Of a stretch of DNA of 37,891 nucleotides, positions 9,946 through 18,644 are shown in pieces. Source of the stretch: Candidatus Saccharicenans sp. (GTDB taxonomy: Bacteria > Acidobacteriota > Aminicenantia > Aminicenantales > Saccharicenantaceae); contig JASEFX010000003.1 of assembly GCA_030018265.1 (NCBI GenBank), positions 1-37,891 on the forward strand. Direction: 5' to 3'. Below the pieces are notes generated by a model that worked only from the letters and a program-made list of their open reading frames with translations, was not told the DNA's origin and did not search any database. Both the position numbers and the translations under genes were made by a program. Position 1 is the stretch's first letter. Each line of letters starts with the position of its first letter.

Positions 9946-10785
9946 ATGAAAGCCAGAAAGAAAAACCAGAAAAAAATTTCAGCGCCTCTTTTTCTTCTGA
10001 CGAACGACGACGGTTATTTCTCCCCCGGGATCACCGCTCTGGCCGAAGAATTGAGCAAAATGGGAGAGGTCTACCTGGTGGCCCCGGACCGGGAGAAAAG
10101 CTCCATCTCTCTGGCGCTGACGCTGCGGCGGCCGCTCCGGGCGGAAAAAATCAGTCCGAAGGTTTACGCTGTTGACGGCACCCCGGCTGACTGCGTCTAC
10201 ATAGCGCTGCAGCACATCTTACCCCGGAACCCCGACCTTCTGATTTCAGGAATAAACCGGGGCGCTAACGTGGGCTGCCAGGATGTTTCCTACTCTGGCA
10301 CTGTCGCTGCCGCCCTGCAGGGAACCTTCATGGGAATTCGTTCGATGGCTGTCTCCGCGCTCGGACGCAAAACCGACAACGGCAGCGTCTACGACTTCAA
10401 GGAAGCCGCCAGGCTGACCAGGATAATAGCTGAAAACCTTCTGAACATCAGCCTTCCTCGCGGTGTCTACCTGAATATAAACATCCCTCCGTTTCCGGTG
10501 AAGGGCATAAAAATCACCCGTCTGGGGGAAAAAAGATATTCGCCCGAACTCGTCAGGAAAAGGGACCCGCGCGGAAAAACCTATTTCTGGATAGGAGTGG
10601 GCAGTCCGAAGGCAGTCGGACCGAAGGATTCAGACGTTCAGGTGGTGGACCGTGGATGGGTTTCGATCACTCCTCTGCAGATTGACCGGACAGCACACCC
10701 GTTTCTGAATCACAGGCTGCTGGAAACCCTAAAAAACTGCTGGAAGCCGCAAAAATCAGGGTTGATTTCCGGCGGGCAGGATTGA
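9946..10785 (+). CDS. surE: 5'/3'-nucleotidase SurE
   Basis: The 279-residue protein matches SurE, a metal-dependent acid phosphatase that removes phosphate from nucleoside monophosphates in stationary-phase or stress physiology. LLTNDDGYFSPG (about 17-28) supplies the paired Asp21/Asp22, REKSSIS (49-55) the Ser ligand region, and SGINRGANVG the downstream Asn ligand. It has a lysine-rich N-terminal extension of about 12 residues before the usual SurE start. AAAGG lies 9 bases before the ATG. The gene lies downstream of tRNA-Pro(GGG) and its 3' end overlaps the convergent DedA gene by 30 bases. Confidence 0.95.
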   Translation: MKARKKNQKKISAPLFLLTNDDGYFSPGITALAEELSKMGEVYLVAPDREKSSISLALTLRRPLRAEKISPKVYAVDGTPADCVYIALQHILPRNPDLLISGINRGANVGCQDVSYSGTVAAALQGTFMGIRSMAVSALGRKTDNGSVYDFKEAARLTRIIAENLLNISLPRGVYLNINIPPFPVKGIKITRLGEKRYSPELVRKRDPRGKTYFWIGVGSPKAVGPKDSDVQVVDRGWVSITPLQIDRTAHPFLNHRLLETLKNCWKPQKSGLISGGQD

Positions 10786-11433
10786 TTTTTTCCTTCTGTT
10801 CCTTCTTTCTTTCAGATACCCGACTCCGGCAGGCACCAGCGAAATTAAAATTATGGCCACCACCACCAGAGAAAAGTTTCGCTTGACCAATGGAATATTG
10901 CCGAAAAAATAACCGCCGAAGAGAAAAGCGGCCACCCAGAGGACGCTTCCCAGAAAGCTGTAAATCAGGAACCTGAGATAACTCATCCGGCCGATTCCGG
11001 CCACAAAAGGAGCAAAGGTTCTGATAAAAGGCATGAACCGGGCGATGACAATCGTCAGGCTGCCATACTTCTCATAGAAACGATGCGTCTTTTCCAGATA
11101 TTCTTTCTTGAAGAAACGGCTGTTTTCCCGGTTGAAAACTCCTTCTCCAACCTTTGAACCTATGAAATAATTTGTCACGTTTCCGAAGAATGCGGCCAGC
11201 GCCAGAACCAGAAAAAGTCGAAAAACGTTAAGATGGCCGATAGCTGCTATGGCTCCGACGGCAAAAAGAAGAGAATCTCCCGGGAAAAATGGTGTCACCA
11301 CAAAACCGGTCTCGGAAAAAATGACGGCGAATAGAATTAGATATGTCCAGGTCCCGTACTGGTTGACTATGTCAACCACGTACCGGTCGAGATGAATGGC
11401 TATGTCAATAAGCTTCTTTATAAAACCGACCAC
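10756..11433 (-). CDS. DedA family (VTT domain) membrane protein
   Basis: This 225-residue inner-membrane protein has the DedA/VTT pattern: an N-terminal re-entrant segment around ETGFVVTPFFPGDSLLF (acidic residue, then PGDSLL), and the conserved R-F-x-P-x-x-R-T segment RFMPFIRTFAPFVAG, with several hydrophobic helices between and after. Family members are proton-dependent transporters or scramblases linked to envelope homeostasis and undecaprenyl-phosphate or phospholipid flipping. The start is GTG with GGAG about 8 bases upstream. The gene is convergent with surE and overlaps its last 30 bases. The C-terminal tail is short and basic. Confidence 0.92.
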   Translation of the reverse strand: MVGFIKKLIDIAIHLDRYVVDIVNQYGTWTYLILFAVIFSETGFVVTPFFPGDSLLFAVGAIAAIGHLNVFRLFLVLALAAFFGNVTNYFIGSKVGEGVFNRENSRFFKKEYLEKTHRFYEKYGSLTIVIARFMPFIRTFAPFVAGIGRMSYLRFLIYSFLGSVLWVAAFLFGGYFFGNIPLVKRNFSLVVVAIILISLVPAGVGYLKERRNRRKKSILPAGNQP

Positions 11434-11563
11434 AACCGCGCTCCGCTCGTTCGTTAAATTTTAATTCAGGTATAACTTATCTTTCACGTGTTAAAAAACT
11501 TTCCTGAATCAGACAGAGCTGAACTTCAGGCCCGGATGACTGCCCGGAAGCAGATAATGGCGC

Positions 11564-12196
11564 TTATTCGTAAACCAGAATTTCCACTCGCCTGTTGGCG
11601 GCTCTCCCCTGGTGTGTGGAATTATCAGCTATAGGTTTCGAACTTCCCAGGCTGACGGCAGCCATCCGGTGCAGAGGAATCCCGTAAGTTTTGTACAGAT
11701 ACATCATGACCGCTTCAGCTCTCTTCTGACCGAGGTAGATATTGACCTCTTCCGGACCGGTGTTGTCAGTATGCCCCTGAATTTCCAGATATACGCCCTT
11801 GTTTTCGTCTATCAGCCTCTTTACAAAACGATCAATGGCCGCTTTAGCTTCAGGCGTTAGCTCAGCGCTGTTGAAGGCAAATTTTACCTCATCGCTTCTG
11901 AGGGTGGCAGTCATCACCAGCTTTCCGCGGATCAGGGTTTTTACTTCCTCAATCTTTCCTTCAACCTTCTGGAACTGGCTGTCATGCTTTCCGATGAGCT
12001 CTCCGATCGTGGCCAGCCGCTCATCATGTTCTCTAATTCTTTTTTGCGCTTCTTCGATTTCAGTGGAGATACTCGATACCTTCTTGTCCAGAGCAGCTAC
12101 CTCTGTATTGACATATTTCTTCGTGGCGCAACCTGCAGCCAGAAGGCTCAGCCCGAGACCCAGGAGCACCGCAAACAACACCACTTTGTTTTTCAT
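11564..12196 (-). CDS. OmpA-family peptidoglycan-binding lipoprotein
   Basis: The protein has 210 residues from ATG 12196, which has AGGAGG 6 bases upstream; a TTG one codon earlier is not the likely start. A lipoprotein signal ends at LAAGC with Cys23. A coiled-coil region follows (about 28-90, heptad-like with Glu/Lys), then an OmpA C-terminal domain (about 100-210). The domain holds the pattern GHTDNTG, then GQKRAEAV, and a final ANRRVEI, where the Asp and Arg bind diaminopimelate. The protein probably tethers the outer membrane to the peptidoglycan and so marks the cell as diderm. The architecture is lipid anchor, coiled coil and OmpA domain, without a beta-barrel. Confidence 0.93.
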   Translation of the reverse strand: MKNKVVLFAVLLGLGLSLLAAGCATKKYVNTEVAALDKKVSSISTEIEEAQKRIREHDERLATIGELIGKHDSQFQKVEGKIEEVKTLIRGKLVMTATLRSDEVKFAFNSAELTPEAKAAIDRFVKRLIDENKGVYLEIQGHTDNTGPEEVNIYLGQKRAEAVMMYLYKTYGIPLHRMAAVSLGSSKPIADNSTHQGRAANRRVEILVYE

Positions 12197-12302
12197 CAAT
12201 ATCCTCCTTTTTTTAAGACTTTTTAATTATACGCTTATGTCTGTTGACTGTCATTAACAATTATTTTCCGGCCACTGTCTTACCGCTGAAATTGTCTTTA
12301 CT

Positions 12303-13265
12303 TTAATACCCCTGTCTGGTCCTGATCCGGTAATCGCCCTTTCTGGTTACCACCGTAATCCGGCGATATCGATCATCTTCTCTGCAGGAGGTGTAGCCGA
12401 TTATGTATTGATGGCTCTGCTCCCTTTTTATCTCATAAAGAACATTTAGAAGACCTTCCAGATCATCCAGAAAAAAAGCCCGTCCGCCGGTGGCACCAGC
12501 AAAAAGAGTCAGCATTTCAACTATGCCGGCGCTCGTCAATCCGCCTTTCTTTTTATATCTGGCCAGAATCTCTTCTGCCCTGGGTATCTTATAGCCGATG
12601 ACATAAATGGGCACCTCCACTCGCCTTGCCACTTCCAGCGCCTGTTCAACCGTGGCCTGACTGTCATTTTCGATTCCGTCGGTGATCAGAACAAGAGCTC
12701 TTTTTTCGTACCGGGCTCTGACCGCATACTGAGGGGAAACAGCCATGGCGTCGATGAGAGCGGTTTTACCGTAAGCTTTTTCCTTTTCCAGCGCCTCCAG
12801 AAAATACTTCCTGTCAGTCGAATGTCCGGCCGCCACCTCCACCTCTCCGTCGGCAAAAACCAGCAGGGACAGCTCATCGACCGGATTTAGAATCTTCTCA
12901 GCCAGAATTCTGAGAACCTGCCGGCACTCCTCGAATTTGTTCTCGAGTGCCATGCTACCGCTGACATCAAGCAGCACGGTCAGACTCAGGGGAGCTTTCT
13001 GGTCGTGCTGGAAGTAAGTAATGGTTTTTCTCTCTCCGTTTTCGTAGACGACAAAATCATCGGCCTGGAGGTCGTTGACATAACGCCCCTTCCTGTCCTG
13101 AACAGTTACCGACAGAGTGATGGCATTGACGGTAACATTGTAAGCCGGCTTATGCTGGGGGGTTTTATTCTGGTTTTGCTGAGCCAGCGTCAGACAGATT
13201 GCCAGAAGGCAAAAGAAAGCGAAAAAGACGCCGGCTGTTTTAACCTTTTTCTTCCCCTTTAACAT
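12303..13265 (-). CDS. Secreted VWFA-related domain protein
   Basis: The 320-residue protein begins with a signal peptide (residues about 1-28). A short beta domain with the pattern VTVQDRKGRYVNDLQADDFVVYENG (in fragments about 53-77) is typical of VWFA-related proteins common in Acidobacteriota. A von Willebrand factor A domain follows, with an intact MIDAS: DVSGS at 100-104, the later Thr in GKTALID, and Asp in ITDGIEND. The protein should bind a divalent metal and act in protein-protein contact outside the membrane; no enzymatic role is implied. It lies 103 bases upstream of the OmpA lipoprotein gene on the same strand and could share a transcript. Confidence 0.88.
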   Translation of the reverse strand: MLKGKKKVKTAGVFFAFFCLLAICLTLAQQNQNKTPQHKPAYNVTVNAITLSVTVQDRKGRYVNDLQADDFVVYENGERKTITYFQHDQKAPLSLTVLLDVSGSMALENKFEECRQVLRILAEKILNPVDELSLLVFADGEVEVAAGHSTDRKYFLEALEKEKAYGKTALIDAMAVSPQYAVRARYEKRALVLITDGIENDSQATVEQALEVARRVEVPIYVIGYKIPRAEEILARYKKKGGLTSAGIVEMLTLFAGATGGRAFFLDDLEGLLNVLYEIKREQSHQYIIGYTSCREDDRYRRITVVTRKGDYRIRTRQGY

Positions 13266-13595
13266 TTTAATCTTACCCTAAGCATAGCACCCCGGCCGGG
13301 CACTGGCAATCTAACCTCTCTTTTATTTAGTCGCTGCAAGGGACGAAATCCGTCCGGAGCTAAAAGAATGCAGCCTGAAAACAAACATAACCGAAGGCAG
13401 AGGAGGTGGCGAATTCAGGCTGATTGATTAAACATCAGACCTGACAAGGGTATCTGAAAAAGACCGGAAAGTATGAATTTTTCTAAAATCGCGATGGAAC
13501 TCAAATAAGCTAAAAACTCAGGCCGATCTTTTCTTCAGGTTAACGGTCCTTTTTTACTTCAAGGCGAAGTCGAAGGAATCAACTATTTCCAGCTT
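13266..13595. other. Intergenic stretch, 330 bp
   Basis: This gap separates the VWFA gene start from the end of phoU. It contains a short inverted repeat (ACTTC-5-GAAGT near 13555-13570) next to a T-run on its far side, so orientation does not fit a terminator. I saw no coding remnant or RNA gene. Confidence 0.5.
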
Positions 13596-14264
13596 TTATT
13601 TCAATGTTTCCGGATGATGGCGAACCTGCATCGCTTCAACCATGTAGATTACATCTTCAGCGATGTTAGTGGCGTGGTCGCAGATGCGTTCAAGGTGCCT
13701 GGCCACCAGCAGCAGAGCTACTGCCCTCGGCGCGGTGCTCGGGTCTTTGCTCATATAATCATTTATCAGTTCAGATTGAACCAGGTTGCGCAGCTCATCA
13801 GCTTCGTTGTCCCTTAAAATTACCGACCTGGCCAGTTCAGTGTCCTTGTTGACGAAAGAATTTATCGCGTCGCGGACCATTCCCTGGGCTAAGGTGGCCA
13901 GCTTTGGTATATCGATCAAGGGTTTAAGCAACGGCTTGTCGGCCATTTCCAGAACTCTCTGGGCAATATCAACCGCCAGGTCAGCGATTCTCTCCAGGTC
14001 GGTGGCAATTTTCATCGACATGACGATGAAACGCAGGTCGGTAGCAGCCGGCTGGTAGAGAGCGATCAGGCTCAGGCACTTTTCTTCTATCTCCAGGTCG
14101 ATCTGATCTATCCTGTCGTCATCCTTGATTACCGCCTCCGCTTTTTCCCGGCTCAATTCCCGCAGAGCTTTTATGGAATTGGCGATGGTCGTCTCGACCT
14201 CGGCGCTCATTTCCAGAATTTTTTTGTTCAGCTCCAGCAGTTCATCGTCAAAATATCTTGTCAT
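13596..14264 (-). CDS. phoU: Phosphate transport regulator PhoU
   Basis: The 222-residue cytoplasmic protein has two PhoU helical-bundle repeats. The repeat signatures DLERIADLAVDIAQRV (about residues 93-108) and HLERICDHATNIAEDV (near the C-terminus) carry the conserved E/D-x-x-x-D metal-binding pattern. PhoU links the Pst transporter to phosphate signalling and restrains uptake when phosphate is plentiful. GGAGG stands directly before the ATG. It is the last gene of the pst operon, 36 bases after pstB1. No PhoR/PhoB pair is in the window. Confidence 0.95.
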   Translation of the reverse strand: MTRYFDDELLELNKKILEMSAEVETTIANSIKALRELSREKAEAVIKDDDRIDQIDLEIEEKCLSLIALYQPAATDLRFIVMSMKIATDLERIADLAVDIAQRVLEMADKPLLKPLIDIPKLATLAQGMVRDAINSFVNKDTELARSVILRDNEADELRNLVQSELINDYMSKDPSTAPRAVALLLVARHLERICDHATNIAEDVIYMVEAMQVRHHPETLK

Positions 14265-14300
14265 GATGCCTCCTTTTCCAGCTGCTCTGGTTAGTTAACC

Positions 14301-15065
14301 TTAACCAAAACGGCCGGTTATGTAATCCTCAGTCCTTTTATCCCGCGGACTGGTAAATATCTGATGGGTTTCCCCGAATTCCACCAGGTCTCCCAGCAGA
14401 AAATAGCCGGTGTAATCGGAGACCCGGGCTGCCTGCTGCATGTTATGGGTAACTATGACAATGGTGTAATCTTTTTTCAATTCATACATCAGGTCTTCGA
14501 TCCGGGCGGTGGCCACCGGGTCGAGAGCCGAACAGGGCTCATCCATCAAAACCACTTCCGGCTCGACCGCCAGCAACCTGGCGATACAGAGCCGCTGCTG
14601 CTGCTCTCCGGTCAATTTTAAGGCATTCTCATAAAGCCTGTCCTTTAACTCGTCCCAGAGATTCACTGCCTGAAGGCTCCGGTAAAGTTTTTCCTCCAGA
14701 TATTCCCGGTCGGTGATCCCGTGCACCCGGAGTCCGTAAGTGATGTTCTCGGCAACGCTCAGAGGAAAAGGATTGGGCCTCTGGAAAACCATGCCCACTC
14801 TCCTTCTTAACTCCAGAAGATCCGTCTCCGGGTCGTAGATATTTTTCCCCTCGAAAAGCACCTGACCTTCAGTCCGGCAGCCTTCAATCAGGTCATTCAT
14901 CCTGTTCAGCGCTCGCAGAAATGTCGATTTGCCGCAACCGGAAGGACCGATCAGGGCCGTGATGCGGTTGGCCTGGATATCAAGGTTGATCGACCTGAGC
15001 GCCTGGAATTTCCCGTAATAGACATTCAGGTCTCTGACCTCGATAACATTCTTTGTTCCAGACAT
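14301..15065 (-). CDS. pstB: Phosphate ABC transporter ATPase PstB, copy 1 (altered signature motif)
   Basis: The 254-residue protein is a close PstB: Walker A GPSGCGKS (40-47), Q-loop Gln95 (MVFQRP), Walker B with Asp175-Glu176, SALD D-loop, switch His207 ([10 protein letters not shown]) and the C-terminal [12 protein letters not shown] end. The ABC signature is altered: LTGEQQQR (151-158) instead of LSGGQQQR, with Glu replacing the second Gly that contacts the ATP gamma-phosphate of the opposite subunit. The underlying codons, ACC GGA GAG, are clear, so the change is real in this assembly. It lies downstream of a second PstB with the reverse pattern of losses and upstream of phoU. Together they suggest a heterodimer. 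Confidence 0.95.
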
Positions 15066-15093
15066 TTTTCTGTCTTCCAGTCTTATTTTATAC

Positions 15094-15103
15094 CTGTTAA
15101 CAG
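15094..15103. repeat. Perfect palindrome in the pstB2-pstB1 gap
   Basis: CTGTTAACAG is a 10-base perfect palindrome in the 114-base gap between the two ATPase genes. Directly downstream on the minus strand lies TATAAAAT, a -10-like hexamer, about 25 bases before the pstB1 start. It could be an operator of an internal promoter; no good -35 is seen. Confidence 0.3.
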
Positions 15104-15179
15104 TTAATTCCAGATAAAGATTCCATTAATTTATGCCAAAGCGCTTTTTTCAATCCAGCCCTCTCTTACTTGAAGTTTA

Positions 15180-15938
15180 TCACCCGAATTTTCCTTCAAG
15201 GTAAGCTTCCGTCCTTTTATCCATCGGTCTGGTAAAGATCACATGGGTCTCGTCTATCTCCACCAGTTCGCCCATCAGGAAAAAAGCCGTCCGGTCAGCC
15301 ACTCTGGCCGCCTGCTTTGTGTTGTTGGTTACCAGAATGATTGTGTAATCCTTCTTCAGCTGCCGGAGCGACTCTTCTATTTTCATGGTGGAAATCGGAT
15401 CAAGACCGGAGGTGGGTTCGTCCAGCAATATGTATTCAGGCTTCAGAGCCAGAACCCTGGCCAGACACAGCCTCTGCTGCTGACCGCCGGAAAGTTTCAG
15501 CGCGCTGGTGTGAAGCCGATCCTTAACCTCATTCCACAAACCAGCTTTCTCCAGAGAATCTTCTACTATCCGGTCGAGCTCCCGCCGCTCGTCGTTCCCG
15601 AGCAATCTCAGGCCAAAGACGACGTTTTCATAGATGGTCATCGGCAGCGGCACCGGAGTGGCGAAAACAATTCCCAGCTTTCTTCTGAGGGCAACCACAT
15701 CAACATCCGGCCCGTAGATATCCTGCCCGTCAACTTCTATTTTTCCTTCCACCCTCGAGCCGGGAATCAGGTCATTCAGCCGGTTCAGGCAGGCGAGGAA
15801 AGTCGACTTGCCACTCTTGGCCGGTCCGATTATCCCGAGAATCTCATGGCGATAGACATCGAGATTGATGTTGTTAAGACTCCGGACCTGGCCGTAATAA
15901 TGGCTGAAATTCCGGACGATTATTCCTCGCGTTTTCAT
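15180..15938 (-). CDS. pstB: Phosphate ABC transporter ATPase PstB, copy 2 (Q-loop and switch His lost)
   Basis: The 252-residue PstB-like ATPase retains Walker A GPAKSGKS (38-45), an intact LSGGQQQR signature (149-156), Walker B with Asp173-Glu174 and SGLD. Two catalytic positions are changed: the Q-loop Gln is Ala93 (VFATPV against VFQRPN in the partner) and the switch His is Asn205 (VTNNTKQ against VTHNMQQ). Alone it would be expected to hydrolyse ATP poorly. It starts 3 bases after the pstA stop. Its degeneration is complementary to that of copy 1, which keeps Q and H but has a damaged signature. The C-terminus KRTEAYLEGKFG is standard PstB. Confidence 0.93.
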   Translation of the reverse strand: MKTRGIIVRNFSHYYGQVRSLNNINLDVYRHEILGIIGPAKSGKSTFLACLNRLNDLIPGSRVEGKIEVDGQDIYGPDVDVVALRRKLGIVFATPVPLPMTIYENVVFGLRLLGNDERRELDRIVEDSLEKAGLWNEVKDRLHTSALKLSGGQQQRLCLARVLALKPEYILLDEPTSGLDPISTMKIEESLRQLKKDYTIILVTNNTKQAARVADRTAFFLMGELVEIDETHVIFTRPMDKRTEAYLEGKFG

Positions 15939-15941
15939 TTT

Positions 15942-16799
15942 TTATTTTTTCCGTCGGATGTATTTCTCCATGAGATAATAGGTGGTAACGTTAATCAGCA
16001 GGATCGAGATCACCAGCACCGCGGCCGTTCCGTAAGCTTTCGGCATGGAAATGCCTTCCTTGGCCATTATGTAGAAATGCACGGACATCGTCCGGGCTGA
16101 GGAAAACACTGAGGTTGGCAGGCGCAGGGCTGAGCCCGCGGTAAAAATCACAGCCGCAGTTTCTCCGATGCTCCGGCCAACGCTCAGAATGATTCCGGTG
16201 ACTATACCAGGAAGCGCTGAGGGGAGGACCACTCTGGTCACCATCTGCCAGCGAGTGCTTCCGAGGGAAAAGCTCACCAGCCGGTAGGCCTCCGGTACAG
16301 CCTTGATGGCTTCCTCGCTCGTCCGGATGATCGTCGGCAGCACCATAAAAGCCAGGGTCAGACCGCCGCTGAGCATCGACCAGCCAAATTTCAGTTTGTT
16401 CACAAACAGAATGAAACCGAAAAGGCCAAATATGATCGAAGGTATACCGGCGAGACATTCAGCGCCGAATCTGATCACCCTCGTTATCCAGCTCTCGGTG
16501 GTATATTCAGTGAGGAAAATGGCCGTCCCGACACCGAGCGGCGTGGCCACCAGAAGAGCTATCAACGTGAGAAAAATCGTGGCCACTATGGTCGAAAGAA
16601 TTCCTCCCTCTCTGCCCATATCAACCGGATTTCTGGTGAGAAATTCCAGACTGAGCTGCGGCAGACCATTCTTCAGGATCACCACCAGAATGAACACCAG
16701 AACCAGAACGGCGATCGAGGTAAAGGAATACAGTATAACCTGAATGATTTTCTGCTCTGTTTTAGGTTTCAGTTTCAACCTCAAAGACACTTTCCACAC
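15942..16799 (-). CDS. pstA: Phosphate ABC transporter permease PstA
   Basis: The 285-residue inner-membrane protein has about six transmembrane segments and the binding-protein-dependent permease domain. The EAA-like cytoplasmic loop reads SLGSTRWQMVTRVVLPSALPG, with the following GRSIGETAAVIFTAG typical of PstA. The N-terminus carries a basic cytoplasmic leader before the first membrane segment (about 20-45). It pairs with PstC to form the phosphate channel. It begins 1 base after the pstC stop and is followed by pstB2 after 3 bases, so translation is probably coupled along the operon. Confidence 0.95.
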   Translation of the reverse strand: MWKVSLRLKLKPKTEQKIIQVILYSFTSIAVLVLVFILVVILKNGLPQLSLEFLTRNPVDMGREGGILSTIVATIFLTLIALLVATPLGVGTAIFLTEYTTESWITRVIRFGAECLAGIPSIIFGLFGFILFVNKLKFGWSMLSGGLTLAFMVLPTIIRTSEEAIKAVPEAYRLVSFSLGSTRWQMVTRVVLPSALPGIVTGIILSVGRSIGETAAVIFTAGSALRLPTSVFSSARTMSVHFYIMAKEGISMPKAYGTAAVLVISILLINVTTYYLMEKYIRRKK

Positions 16800-16800
16800 C

Positions 16801-17661
16801 TCATTTTCTGCGCTGTCTGGCTGTCGTCACGTTGGCTAATGTGTTAAGAATCATTATTATAATGAAAAGAATCACACCGGTGGCAAAAAGAGCTTCCCGG
16901 TGCTCGCCGCCGGCATAGGCCATTTCCAGGGCGATGTTCGAGGTCAAGGTTCTGACCGGAGCTAAGATAGAATCCGGGATGTTGGCGGCATTTCCGGCCA
17001 CCATGATCACTGCCATCGTCTCCCCTATCGCCCGGCCCATCCCAAGTATAATTCCAGCCACTATCCCCGAACGAGCGGCCGGAAGAACCACCAGCCGCAC
17101 TGTCTGCCATTTCGTAGCTCCAAGAGCTATCGACCCTTCCCGGTAAGAATCAGGCACTGCCCTGATCGAATCAATGGCAATGCTGATCACTGTCGGCAGA
17201 ATCATTATCCCCAGGATAATCGAAGCGGCCAGCACCGAAAGACCCGGACCGCCAAAATTCTCGCGGATGAAAGGCACCAGGAACATAAGCCCGATAAACC
17301 CGTAGACCACCGATGGAATTCCAGCCAGAAGCTCTATGACCGGTTTGAGGATGCGGGTCAATCGCCGGTGGGAAAACTCCGTGAGAAAAATGGCGCTGGC
17401 CAGCCCCAGAGGCACACCTATGATCAGGGCTCCGGCGGTTACCATCAGGGAGCCGACAATCATCGGTAACAGCCCGAAGCTTTGCTCGGTCGGGTACCAG
17501 TCCCGTCCGAGCAGGAAGCTTTTCAGGCCGTATTTGAACATGATCGGAGTTCCCTGCTCGAAAATGAAAACAGTGATTATCGCCAGAATAGAAATGGCAG
17601 AAAGGGCTATCATCAACAGCCCGATTCTGATCAGTCGGTCGTTTCGTTCAAGTGGAGTCAT
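16801..17661 (-). CDS. pstC: Phosphate ABC transporter permease PstC
   Basis: The 286-residue inner-membrane protein has about six hydrophobic segments. Characteristic PstC elements include the periplasmic segment around GRDWYPTEQSFGLLPMIVG after the first helix, ELLAGIPSVVYGF in the middle, and the EAA loop ALGATKWQTVRLVVLPAARSG followed by GRAIGETMAVIMVAGN. It forms the membrane channel with PstA. The ATG overlaps the pstS stop by 4 bases (17658-17661), which points to translational coupling. Confidence 0.95.
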   Translation of the reverse strand: MTPLERNDRLIRIGLLMIALSAISILAIITVFIFEQGTPIMFKYGLKSFLLGRDWYPTEQSFGLLPMIVGSLMVTAGALIIGVPLGLASAIFLTEFSHRRLTRILKPVIELLAGIPSVVYGFIGLMFLVPFIRENFGGPGLSVLAASIILGIMILPTVISIAIDSIRAVPDSYREGSIALGATKWQTVRLVVLPAARSGIVAGIILGMGRAIGETMAVIMVAGNAANIPDSILAPVRTLTSNIALEMAYAGGEHREALFATGVILFIIIMILNTLANVTTARQRRK

Positions 17662-18551
17662 CCGCCGCTCCTGGTGATTGGCCTTACAGGTATTAACCCT
17701 TCCTTATGGATCAACTCCTGTATCTCTTCGGAGAGCACAAAATCTATGAATTCCTTAACCAGACCGCTCGGGGCTTCCTTTGTCAGAAACAGAAAGGGCC
17801 TGACCAGACGATATTCCCTGTTCAGAATGGCTTCCTCGGTGGGCTTTACCCCGTTGAGCGCGAGCGCCTTGACACTTTCGTTAACCAGACCGAGCGAGAT
17901 GAACCCGATAGCGTTAGGGTCGCGGCTGACAATTTCCCTGACTGTACCGTTGGAATCCTGAACGATGGCCTTCCTTGAGATCCGGGATTTTCCCATAACC
18001 ATCTCCTGGAAGGCGCCACGGGTTCCCGACCCTTCTTCTCTGACCACGACGGTTATGGCTTTTTTCTGTCCGGTGAATTTTTCCCAGGTAGTAATCTCTC
18101 CGATAAAAATGCTCTTCACTTCCTCAATGGTCAGGCTGTCGACCGGGTTGCCCGGATGGACGATTATAGCCAGCCCGTCACGAGCAACTTCGATCTCATA
18201 GAGTTCCTTCTCGTCATCTCTAAGCTCGCGAGAAGACATGCCGATATCGGCGGCGCCGGTCCGGACGGCCTGAATTCCGGCGCTGGAACCACCGCCCTGA
18301 ACGTCAACCACCACCCCGTGCCTCTTCTCCATGAACACTTCAGCCCATTTGTCGGCAAAAGGCTGGATGCTGGTGGAACCGGCCACCACTATCGTATGGC
18401 CGCTTTTCCCCTGGCGGCAGGAAGGGAAAAGAAGAAGGGCAACCAGCAGGATAAATATAATTGAACCAGAAGAAAATTTAAAAAGCGGAAAGAACGGGAA
18501 TTTTTCGCCCGACCCGGGCCGGTGCTCAGGTTTTTCCTCTGCCTGCCTCAT
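17658..18551 (-). CDS. pstS: Phosphate-binding protein PstS, probable lipoprotein
   Basis: The protein (297 residues from ATG 18551) is a periplasmic phosphate-binding protein. After a polar N-terminal leader of about 28 residues comes a hydrophobic segment ending in LLFPSC with Cys45, a plausible but non-ideal lipobox. The binding domain has AGSTSIQPF (about 57-65), GGGSSAGIQAVRTGAADIGMSSREL (about 86-110, in parts) and EEGSGTRGAF, which supply Ser/Thr/Asp/Arg phosphate ligands. A TTG three codons upstream (18560) is an alternative start with a closer AGGA site; the choice is uncertain. It opens the pst operon. A TATAAT hexamer lies on the minus strand at 18650-18645. Confidence 0.93.
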   Translation of the reverse strand: MRQAEEKPEHRPGSGEKFPFFPLFKFSSGSIIFILLVALLLFPSCRQGKSGHTIVVAGSTSIQPFADKWAEVFMEKRHGVVVDVQGGGSSAGIQAVRTGAADIGMSSRELRDDEKELYEIEVARDGLAIIVHPGNPVDSLTIEEVKSIFIGEITTWEKFTGQKKAITVVVREEGSGTRGAFQEMVMGKSRISRKAIVQDSNGTVREIVSRDPNAIGFISLGLVNESVKALALNGVKPTEEAILNREYRLVRPFLFLTKEAPSGLVKEFIDFVLSEEIQELIHKEGLIPVRPITRSGG

Positions 18552-18644
18552 TCTCAGCAAACCTTTCCTTCAACCGCCTTCCTGCCTGTATACCAGGCAT
18601 AGATATACATTCAGTCATTTCAGGGGATTAACTTTTAGCTAATT

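Follow-up and report, generated by a model that had tools for sequence, protein, structure and literature searches.

The window, i.e. the whole 37,891-nt stretch of a Candidatus Saccharicenans sp. contig (JASEFX010000003.1) that was analysed, contains a pst operon with the gene order pstS-pstC-pstA-pstB2-pstB1-phoU, all on the minus strand. The ORFs assigned to the phosphate-binding protein PstS (positions 17658–18560) and to PhoU (13596–14264, downstream of pstB1) were named from the operon context only. The two permease genes, pstC (16801–17661) and pstA (15942–16799), are followed by the ATPase genes pstB2 (15180–15938) and pstB1 (14301–15065), and pstA is also located upstream of the ATPase gene pair in relatives. 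PstS, PstC, PstA, and PstB, which together make up a Pst system, are thus all encoded in the window, and phosphate is the substrate predicted from this operon. Relatives with tandem ATPase genes have the identical pst order within the limits of the stretches retrieved. Two further pst operons were found in the same genome, both on another contig. One of them (L010, positions 11035–14445) is a canonical single-pstB operon and represents a natural internal control. The other (L009, contig C83, positions 10187–13721) has the order pstS-pstC-pstA-pstB and a single divergent PstB reading SQKPQ, LSIGQ, and VTHIL, i.e. with the Gln and His intact and the first signature Gly changed.

The two ATPase genes had originally been predicted at positions 15180–15938 and 14301–15065; both ORFs sit exactly there, on the minus strand, and all the motif residues claimed for them were present when checked codon by codon. 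PstB1 is a PstB by its score to the NCBIfam model TIGR00972 (PstB equivalog), 399.6 bits against a cut-off of 343.2. PstB2, for which TIGR00972 is still the best match, is a diverged PstB that scores 341.1 bits and narrowly misses the cut-off by ∼2 bits; the residue pattern described below offers a marker for annotating such proteins.

PstB2 combines an intact signature with altered motifs in its own (cis) half-site. Ala93 (15660–15662; FATPVPLP) replaces the Q-loop Gln and Asn205 (15324–15326; VTNNT) the H-loop His, and the Walker A sequence GPAKSGKST (15801–15827) has Ser for Cys with the Lys kept. The signature LSGGQ (15480–15494; LSGGQQQR) and the Walker-B Asp-Glu with its catalytic Glu (15417–15422; DEP) are intact, and the D-loop carries Gly178 (15405–15407) at a position occupied by Ala in most PstB1s and canonical PstBs. 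PstB1 has the reverse arrangement: Gln95 of the Q-loop (14781–14783) and His207 of the H-loop (14445–14447) are kept, Walker B also reads DEP, and the signature is LTGEQ (14601–14615), with Glu154 for the second Gly.

In a first survey, 60 relatives were searched with PstB2; among the loci read, every PstB2-type gene with a readable neighbour showed the two-gene pattern. Wider searches with two PstB2 profiles (A1, 30 rows; A2, 18 rows) covered the class (142 genomes), a phylum sample (396 genomes), and samples around four named loci, namely the phyla of a planctomycete MAG (246 genomes), a deltaproteobacterial MAG (297), and a WOR-1 MAG (74) and the class of an Ignavibacteriae MAG (245). With the centre genome counted in each sample, hits passing the E-value limit were obtained in 11, 30, 21, and 17 genomes of these four samples, respectively. 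A readable pair of a Q-loop-altered PstB2 and a signature-altered PstB1 was identified at 146 of 151 loci in seven phylum-level groups; the loci do not all represent separate genomes, as one genome (G026) contributes two. In four of the other five loci (L055, L056, L222, and L232), the partner gene is truncated at a contig end or runs into unread sequence; the fifth (L059) has a single canonical PstB. The two pairs of G026 reside on two contigs (L036 and L054), and the L036 copy ends at a contig end.

The pairs were classified into two types. Type I comprises 137 pairs, all in tandem, in every one of which the H-loop His of PstB2 is replaced by Asn; the Q-loop Gln is replaced by Ala (128 pairs) or Ser (8), with one residue unread, and the second signature Gly of the partner is replaced by Glu (127) or Asp (10), i.e. 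by an acidic residue in 137/137. In the nine type-II pairs, PstB2 keeps the His, and its Q-loop Gln is replaced by Asp in six pairs and by Ala in two, the residue being masked in the ninth; the partner lacks the first signature Gly and keeps the second (LxLGQ, with LSLGE once). Taking both types together, the Q-loop position of PstB2 is occupied by Ala in 130 pairs, Ser in 8, Asp in 6, a gap in 1, and a masked residue in 1, and by Gln in none; the H-loop position is Asn in 137 and His in 9. The Walker-A Lys is present in 145/146 PstB2s (one gap), the signature reads LSGGQ in 144 and ISGGQ in 2, and Walker B is Asp-Glu in 145, the remaining one having Asp-Asn. All 146 PstB1s have the Walker-A Lys, the Walker-B Asp-Glu, and the Q-loop Gln, and 145 have the H-loop His, with one gap at a contig end. 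The complementary pattern persists despite rearrangement at six loci of the deltaproteobacterial group (L297–L302), where pstB1 precedes pstS and pstB2 follows pstA, and at two Chloroflexi loci, where pstB1 is transcribed divergently. The asymmetric PstB pair is a conserved trait, and it was expected that loss of the Q-loop or H-loop residue in one copy would co-occur with loss of LSGGQ in the other, which holds for all 146 readable pairs; the opposing case, an altered PstB2 beside a partner with a canonical signature, was not encountered at any locus with a readable neighbour.

The distribution of the losses was further examined in an alignment of 135 type-I pairs and 75 canonical PstBs, counting a column as lost when it was at least 90% conserved in the partner and in canonical PstBs and <10% conserved in the tested protein. 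Nine columns are lost in PstB2 and kept in PstB1 and canonical PstBs, including those of the Walker-A Cys (to Ser), the Q-loop Gln (to Ala) and Phe (to Leu), the D-loop Ala (to Gly), and the H-loop His (to Asn), whereas the converse criterion identifies only two columns for PstB1, including that of the second signature Gly. The concentration of the PstB2 losses at cis motifs and of the PstB1 loss at the signature, which acts in trans, is beyond chance. A match between position 3 of the PstB1 signature and position 4 of the PstB2 Walker A was also tabulated, and no conclusion was drawn from it.

The association was also examined in the reverse direction by searching the 142 genomes of the class with a type-I PstB1 profile (A4), using a line of at least 430 bits that was set by eye at a gap in the scores (next group, at most 416 bits). 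Type-I PstB1 was found in 66 genomes, of which 63 contain a full-length PstB2, and all 63 class genomes with a full-length PstB2 fall within these 66; in the other three (G006, G046, and G052), PstB2 is interrupted by an N-run or a contig end. In the WOR-1 phylum, type-I PstB1 and full-length PstB2 occur in 22 and 21 of the 74 genomes, respectively, and the odd genome (G1102) has a PstB2 with an N-run. The PstB1 with the acidic signature is therefore always accompanied by PstB2, whole or cut, in 66/66 and 22/22 genomes. A second type-I PstB1 in one genome (G092) begins at a contig end, so that its neighbour lies beyond view.

Canonical PstBs were sampled by a background scan of named genomes with general PstB peptides, which is not a census. 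Among the matches listed (80 loci), 77 of 93 PstB-like ORFs are canonical at the Q-loop, the H-loop, and the signature; of the other 16, 15 belong to loci of the asymmetric kind, including one masked at the Q-loop (L097) and one without a partner on its contig (L120). The remaining ORF, at L135 (3956–4735) in a Streptococcus MAG, belongs to a tandem pair; its H-loop reads VTRSM, with the His changed to Arg, and the neighbouring copy is intact. Hence a change of the H-loop alone needs no altered partner. Similarly, a pair cannot be deduced from a changed first signature Gly alone, as indicated by the LSIGQ of the single PstB of L009 and the LSVGQ of a relative (L060). Seven ordinary tandem pairs (L062, L064, L135, and L336–L339) have LSGGQ and the Gln in 14/14 copies and the His in 13/14. 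These pairs bear on the idea that pstB1 and pstB2 are duplicates that underwent ordinary subfunctionalization, the two proteins homodimerizing separately under different conditions. The non-equivalent roles of PstB1 and PstB2 of Enterococcus faecalis might suggest such a division, but the ordinary tandem pairs keep LSGGQ and the Gln in both copies, and each homodimer of the present proteins would contain two altered sites, with alterations that are complementary and fixed. We regard subfunctionalization as quite improbable.

Both genes are under purifying selection within the genus. Among 17 genomes of the same genus, counting only genome pairs with dS < 2, the median dN/dS was 0.054 for PstB1 (45 of 136 genome pairs) and 0.048 for PstB2 (48 of 136). 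Sequencing error, or neutral decay affecting one copy or both, has only the non-consensus residues themselves in its favour. It is at odds with these low dN/dS values, with the near fixation of the replacement residues (Ala 130, Asn 137, and Glu or Asp 137 of 146), and with the recurrence of the same residues in separate genomes of several phyla; on the pair table and the dN/dS values it was rejected, its probability being close to nil. The earlier view that the pattern is hard to explain by random decay is borne out by this selection and by replacement residues nearly fixed across phyla.

Since the lineages are related, the 137 type-I pairs do not correspond to 137 independent events. In a quick unrooted tree of 103 rows, built with the motif columns removed and without bootstrapping, all 36 PstB2 rows are set apart from the rest by a branch with an SH-aLRT value of 96, and type-I PstB1 and type-I PstB2 likewise split off with values of 89 and 84, respectively. 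A single origin of the type-II PstB1s was not recovered, and three changes were counted on this 103-row tree. The PstBs of L009 and L060 form a long-branched group of their own. Judging from these sequences, the type-I pairs may descend from one old event that has long been retained rather than from many independent ones.

The permeases of type-I operons differ from those of other operons in the coupling helix of PstA. The comparison set consisted mostly of canonical single-pstB operons, together with ordinary tandems and the odd operons L009 and L060. In the coupling-helix (EAA) region of the window PstA (16245–16289), Val175 and Ser178 replace small residues, as confirmed by codon check and alignments. 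Position 5 of this helix is Val or Ile in 125 of 132 type-I PstAs, and a small residue is found there in 7/132 compared with 88/88 in the comparison set; position 8 is Ser in 125/132, compared with Ala or Gly in 80/88. When L009 and L060 were omitted, these two positions ranked first and second among 270 columns by composition shift. PstC, encoded in the window with an ordinary coupling helix, has a small residue at position 5 in 120 of 121 type-I operons (the sole exception being a masked row) and in 84/84 of the comparison set, and Ala or Gly at position 8 in 120/121 and 78/84, respectively; the best rank within its coupling-helix region was 15th of 210 columns. The Glu of the EAA motif is present in 53/132 type-I and 75/88 comparison PstAs and in 112/121 type-I and 57/84 comparison PstCs. 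Type-II operons have Val or Ile at PstA position 5 in 12/12 and Ser at position 8 in 8/12, and four canonical pst operons that adjoin type-II operons at the same loci have Ala at position 5. Seven type-I PstAs (L229, L230, L231, L241, L245, L261, and L264) retain a small residue at position 5, and the coupling-helix change is thus not universal.

In importers, the permease loop contacts the ATPase at the Q-loop. The same contact is described in exporters (PMC7756269). As PstA has the changed helix and the Q-loop is where the loop meets the ATPase, the most economical interpretation places PstB2 on PstA, and the changed helix of PstA together with the unchanged helix of PstC suggests this docking. 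A PstA–PstB2 fusion, which would fix the docking, was sought among the loci of the relatives, where no ORF with two different pst domains was found.

Each ATP site of an ABC dimer is composed of Walker A, Walker B, the Q-loop, and the H-loop of one subunit and the signature of the other (PMC7756269). On this basis, we propose, with a probability of roughly 0.8, that the operon encodes a Pst importer with an obligate PstB1–PstB2 heterodimer having one canonical and one degenerate ATP site. Site 1 would be composed of Walker A/B, Gln95, and His207 of PstB1 and the LSGGQ of PstB2 and, being fully canonical, would bind and hydrolyse ATP. Site 2 would be composed of Walker A/B, Ala93, and Asn205 of PstB2 and the LTGEQ of PstB1 and, being degenerate, would at best hold ATP without useful hydrolysis. 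PstB2 would be placed on PstA, matching the changed coupling helix, and PstB1 on PstC. As a homodimer of either protein would have no unaltered site, function is expected of the mixed dimer alone. The original prediction of one canonical site and one that loses the Q-loop, H-loop, and signature together is supported by the co-occurrence data, from which we infer the mixed dimer itself; dimerization, docking, and the activity of each site are predicted. When the pair was joined through a spacer and modelled with AlphaFold, the domains were well folded (mean pLDDT 85.2), the two halves were not confidently placed relative to one another (pTM 0.50), and a fold search with the whole joined model returned only loose matches.

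The pair shows the composition of an ABC transporter with one degenerate site, with the signature altered in one nucleotide-binding domain (NBD), the cis motifs in the other, and the rest intact. The exporter-type change of the Walker-B Glu is absent from the PstB2s apart from the single Asp-Asn, whereas in human degenerate sites this change ranks second after that of the signature (PMC7756269). Because PstB2 keeps the Walker-A Lys and the catalytic Glu, site 2 could retain some activity. In the working site of MRP1, replacement of the H-loop His by Asn or Gln left transport intact (PMC7756269). It is conceivable, though doubtful, that the signature acid of PstB1 faces the Walker-A Lys of PstB2 as a substitute for the γ-phosphate; site 2 would then close nucleotide-free and serve the PstA side as a permanent latch, one ATP would be spent per phosphate, and the PstA helix would be matched to the fixed half.

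PstB2 might instead be a regulator, a PstB-like subunit that mainly relays transporter status to PhoU, transport being carried out by PstB1 homodimers. The Escherichia coli PstB variants Q160K (signature) and E179Q (Walker B) do not transport and give fixed Pho signals (PMC5775613), which indicates that an inactive PstB can signal, and phoU follows pstB1 in the window and in many relatives. However, phoU is not consistently associated with the pair: among the 35 type-I loci with at least 900 bases beyond pstB1, it is present in 16 and absent in 19. Moreover, a PstB1 homodimer would carry the acid in both signatures, PstB2 keeps a signature that matters only for the ATP site of its partner, and the two genes co-occur without exception. 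A mainly regulatory PstB2 therefore appears improbable, if slightly less so than subfunctionalization.

The proposed PstB1–PstB2 importer resembles several known systems in part. As in the E. coli PstSCAB transporter (PDB 9k3s, 9k3x, and 9k3y), PstS, PstC, PstA, and PstB are encoded in one operon. The PstB2 sequence aligns with that of E. coli PstB (9k3x_C, E-value 1.6e-81), and in the one stretch listed, half of the AlphaFold model could be superposed on this protein with a TM-score of 0.96 (target length) and an rmsd of 1.3 over 245 columns. E. coli PstB has been modelled as a homodimer (PMC5775613), whereas the window encodes two dissimilar PstBs, changed in complementary ways, and a PstA with a changed coupling helix. 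The exporters TAP, TM287/288, CFTR, MRP1, and Pdr5 likewise combine one consensus and one degenerate composite site, and the degenerate signature of Pdr5, LNVEQ (PMC7756269), has Glu where PstB1 has Glu. Unlike these exporters, the system in the window is an importer that has a binding protein and whose ATPase subunits are separate. Importers with one degenerate site have been described in Bacillus subtilis, namely RbsA and NupO, which have two NBDs fused in one chain and a second Walker A without the Lys (PMC11466899). In the window, the NBDs are encoded by two genes, the Lys and the Walker-B Glu are kept, and the changes affect the Q-loop, the H-loop, and the signature.

An asymmetric importer had been predicted to be new. 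With the degenerate sites of RbsA and NupO in print, this wider claim falls; the narrower case of an asymmetric Pst importer with separate ATPase subunits was not contradicted, and no asymmetric PstB was found in the titles and abstract openings of open-licence PubMed Central articles among the matches listed. The need for one or two working ATP sites and the purpose of a disabled one have been studied mainly in exporters. The present pairs would provide a natural importer, occurring in several phyla, whose canonical and degenerate sites are split over two separate genes; these genes can be deleted or mixed, with the canonical Pst of L010 in the same genome as a control.

Bacillota such as E. 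faecalis and B. subtilis (PstBA and PstBB) likewise carry a pair of pstB genes within a single pst locus; a PstBA–PstBB complex has been modelled for B. subtilis (PMC11466899), and the roles of duplicated pstB genes have been stated as not understood (PMC12096839). The asymmetric pairs offer an answer for one class of these duplicated genes. Of nine further Bacillota stretches, eight contain two PstBs and agree with the pattern, four being asymmetric and four canonical in both copies, and the ninth (L343) contains one canonical PstB. Three of the asymmetric loci (L340–L342) carry additional type-II pairs. At the other, L344 (1016–1777 and 4473–5267), the PstB2-like member has Asp-Arg in place of the Walker-B Asp-Glu. 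Together with L120 and L220, this locus represents a further Bacillota kind, in which one PstB has Asp-Arg and the other has LAPGQ or LTPGQ together with DES.
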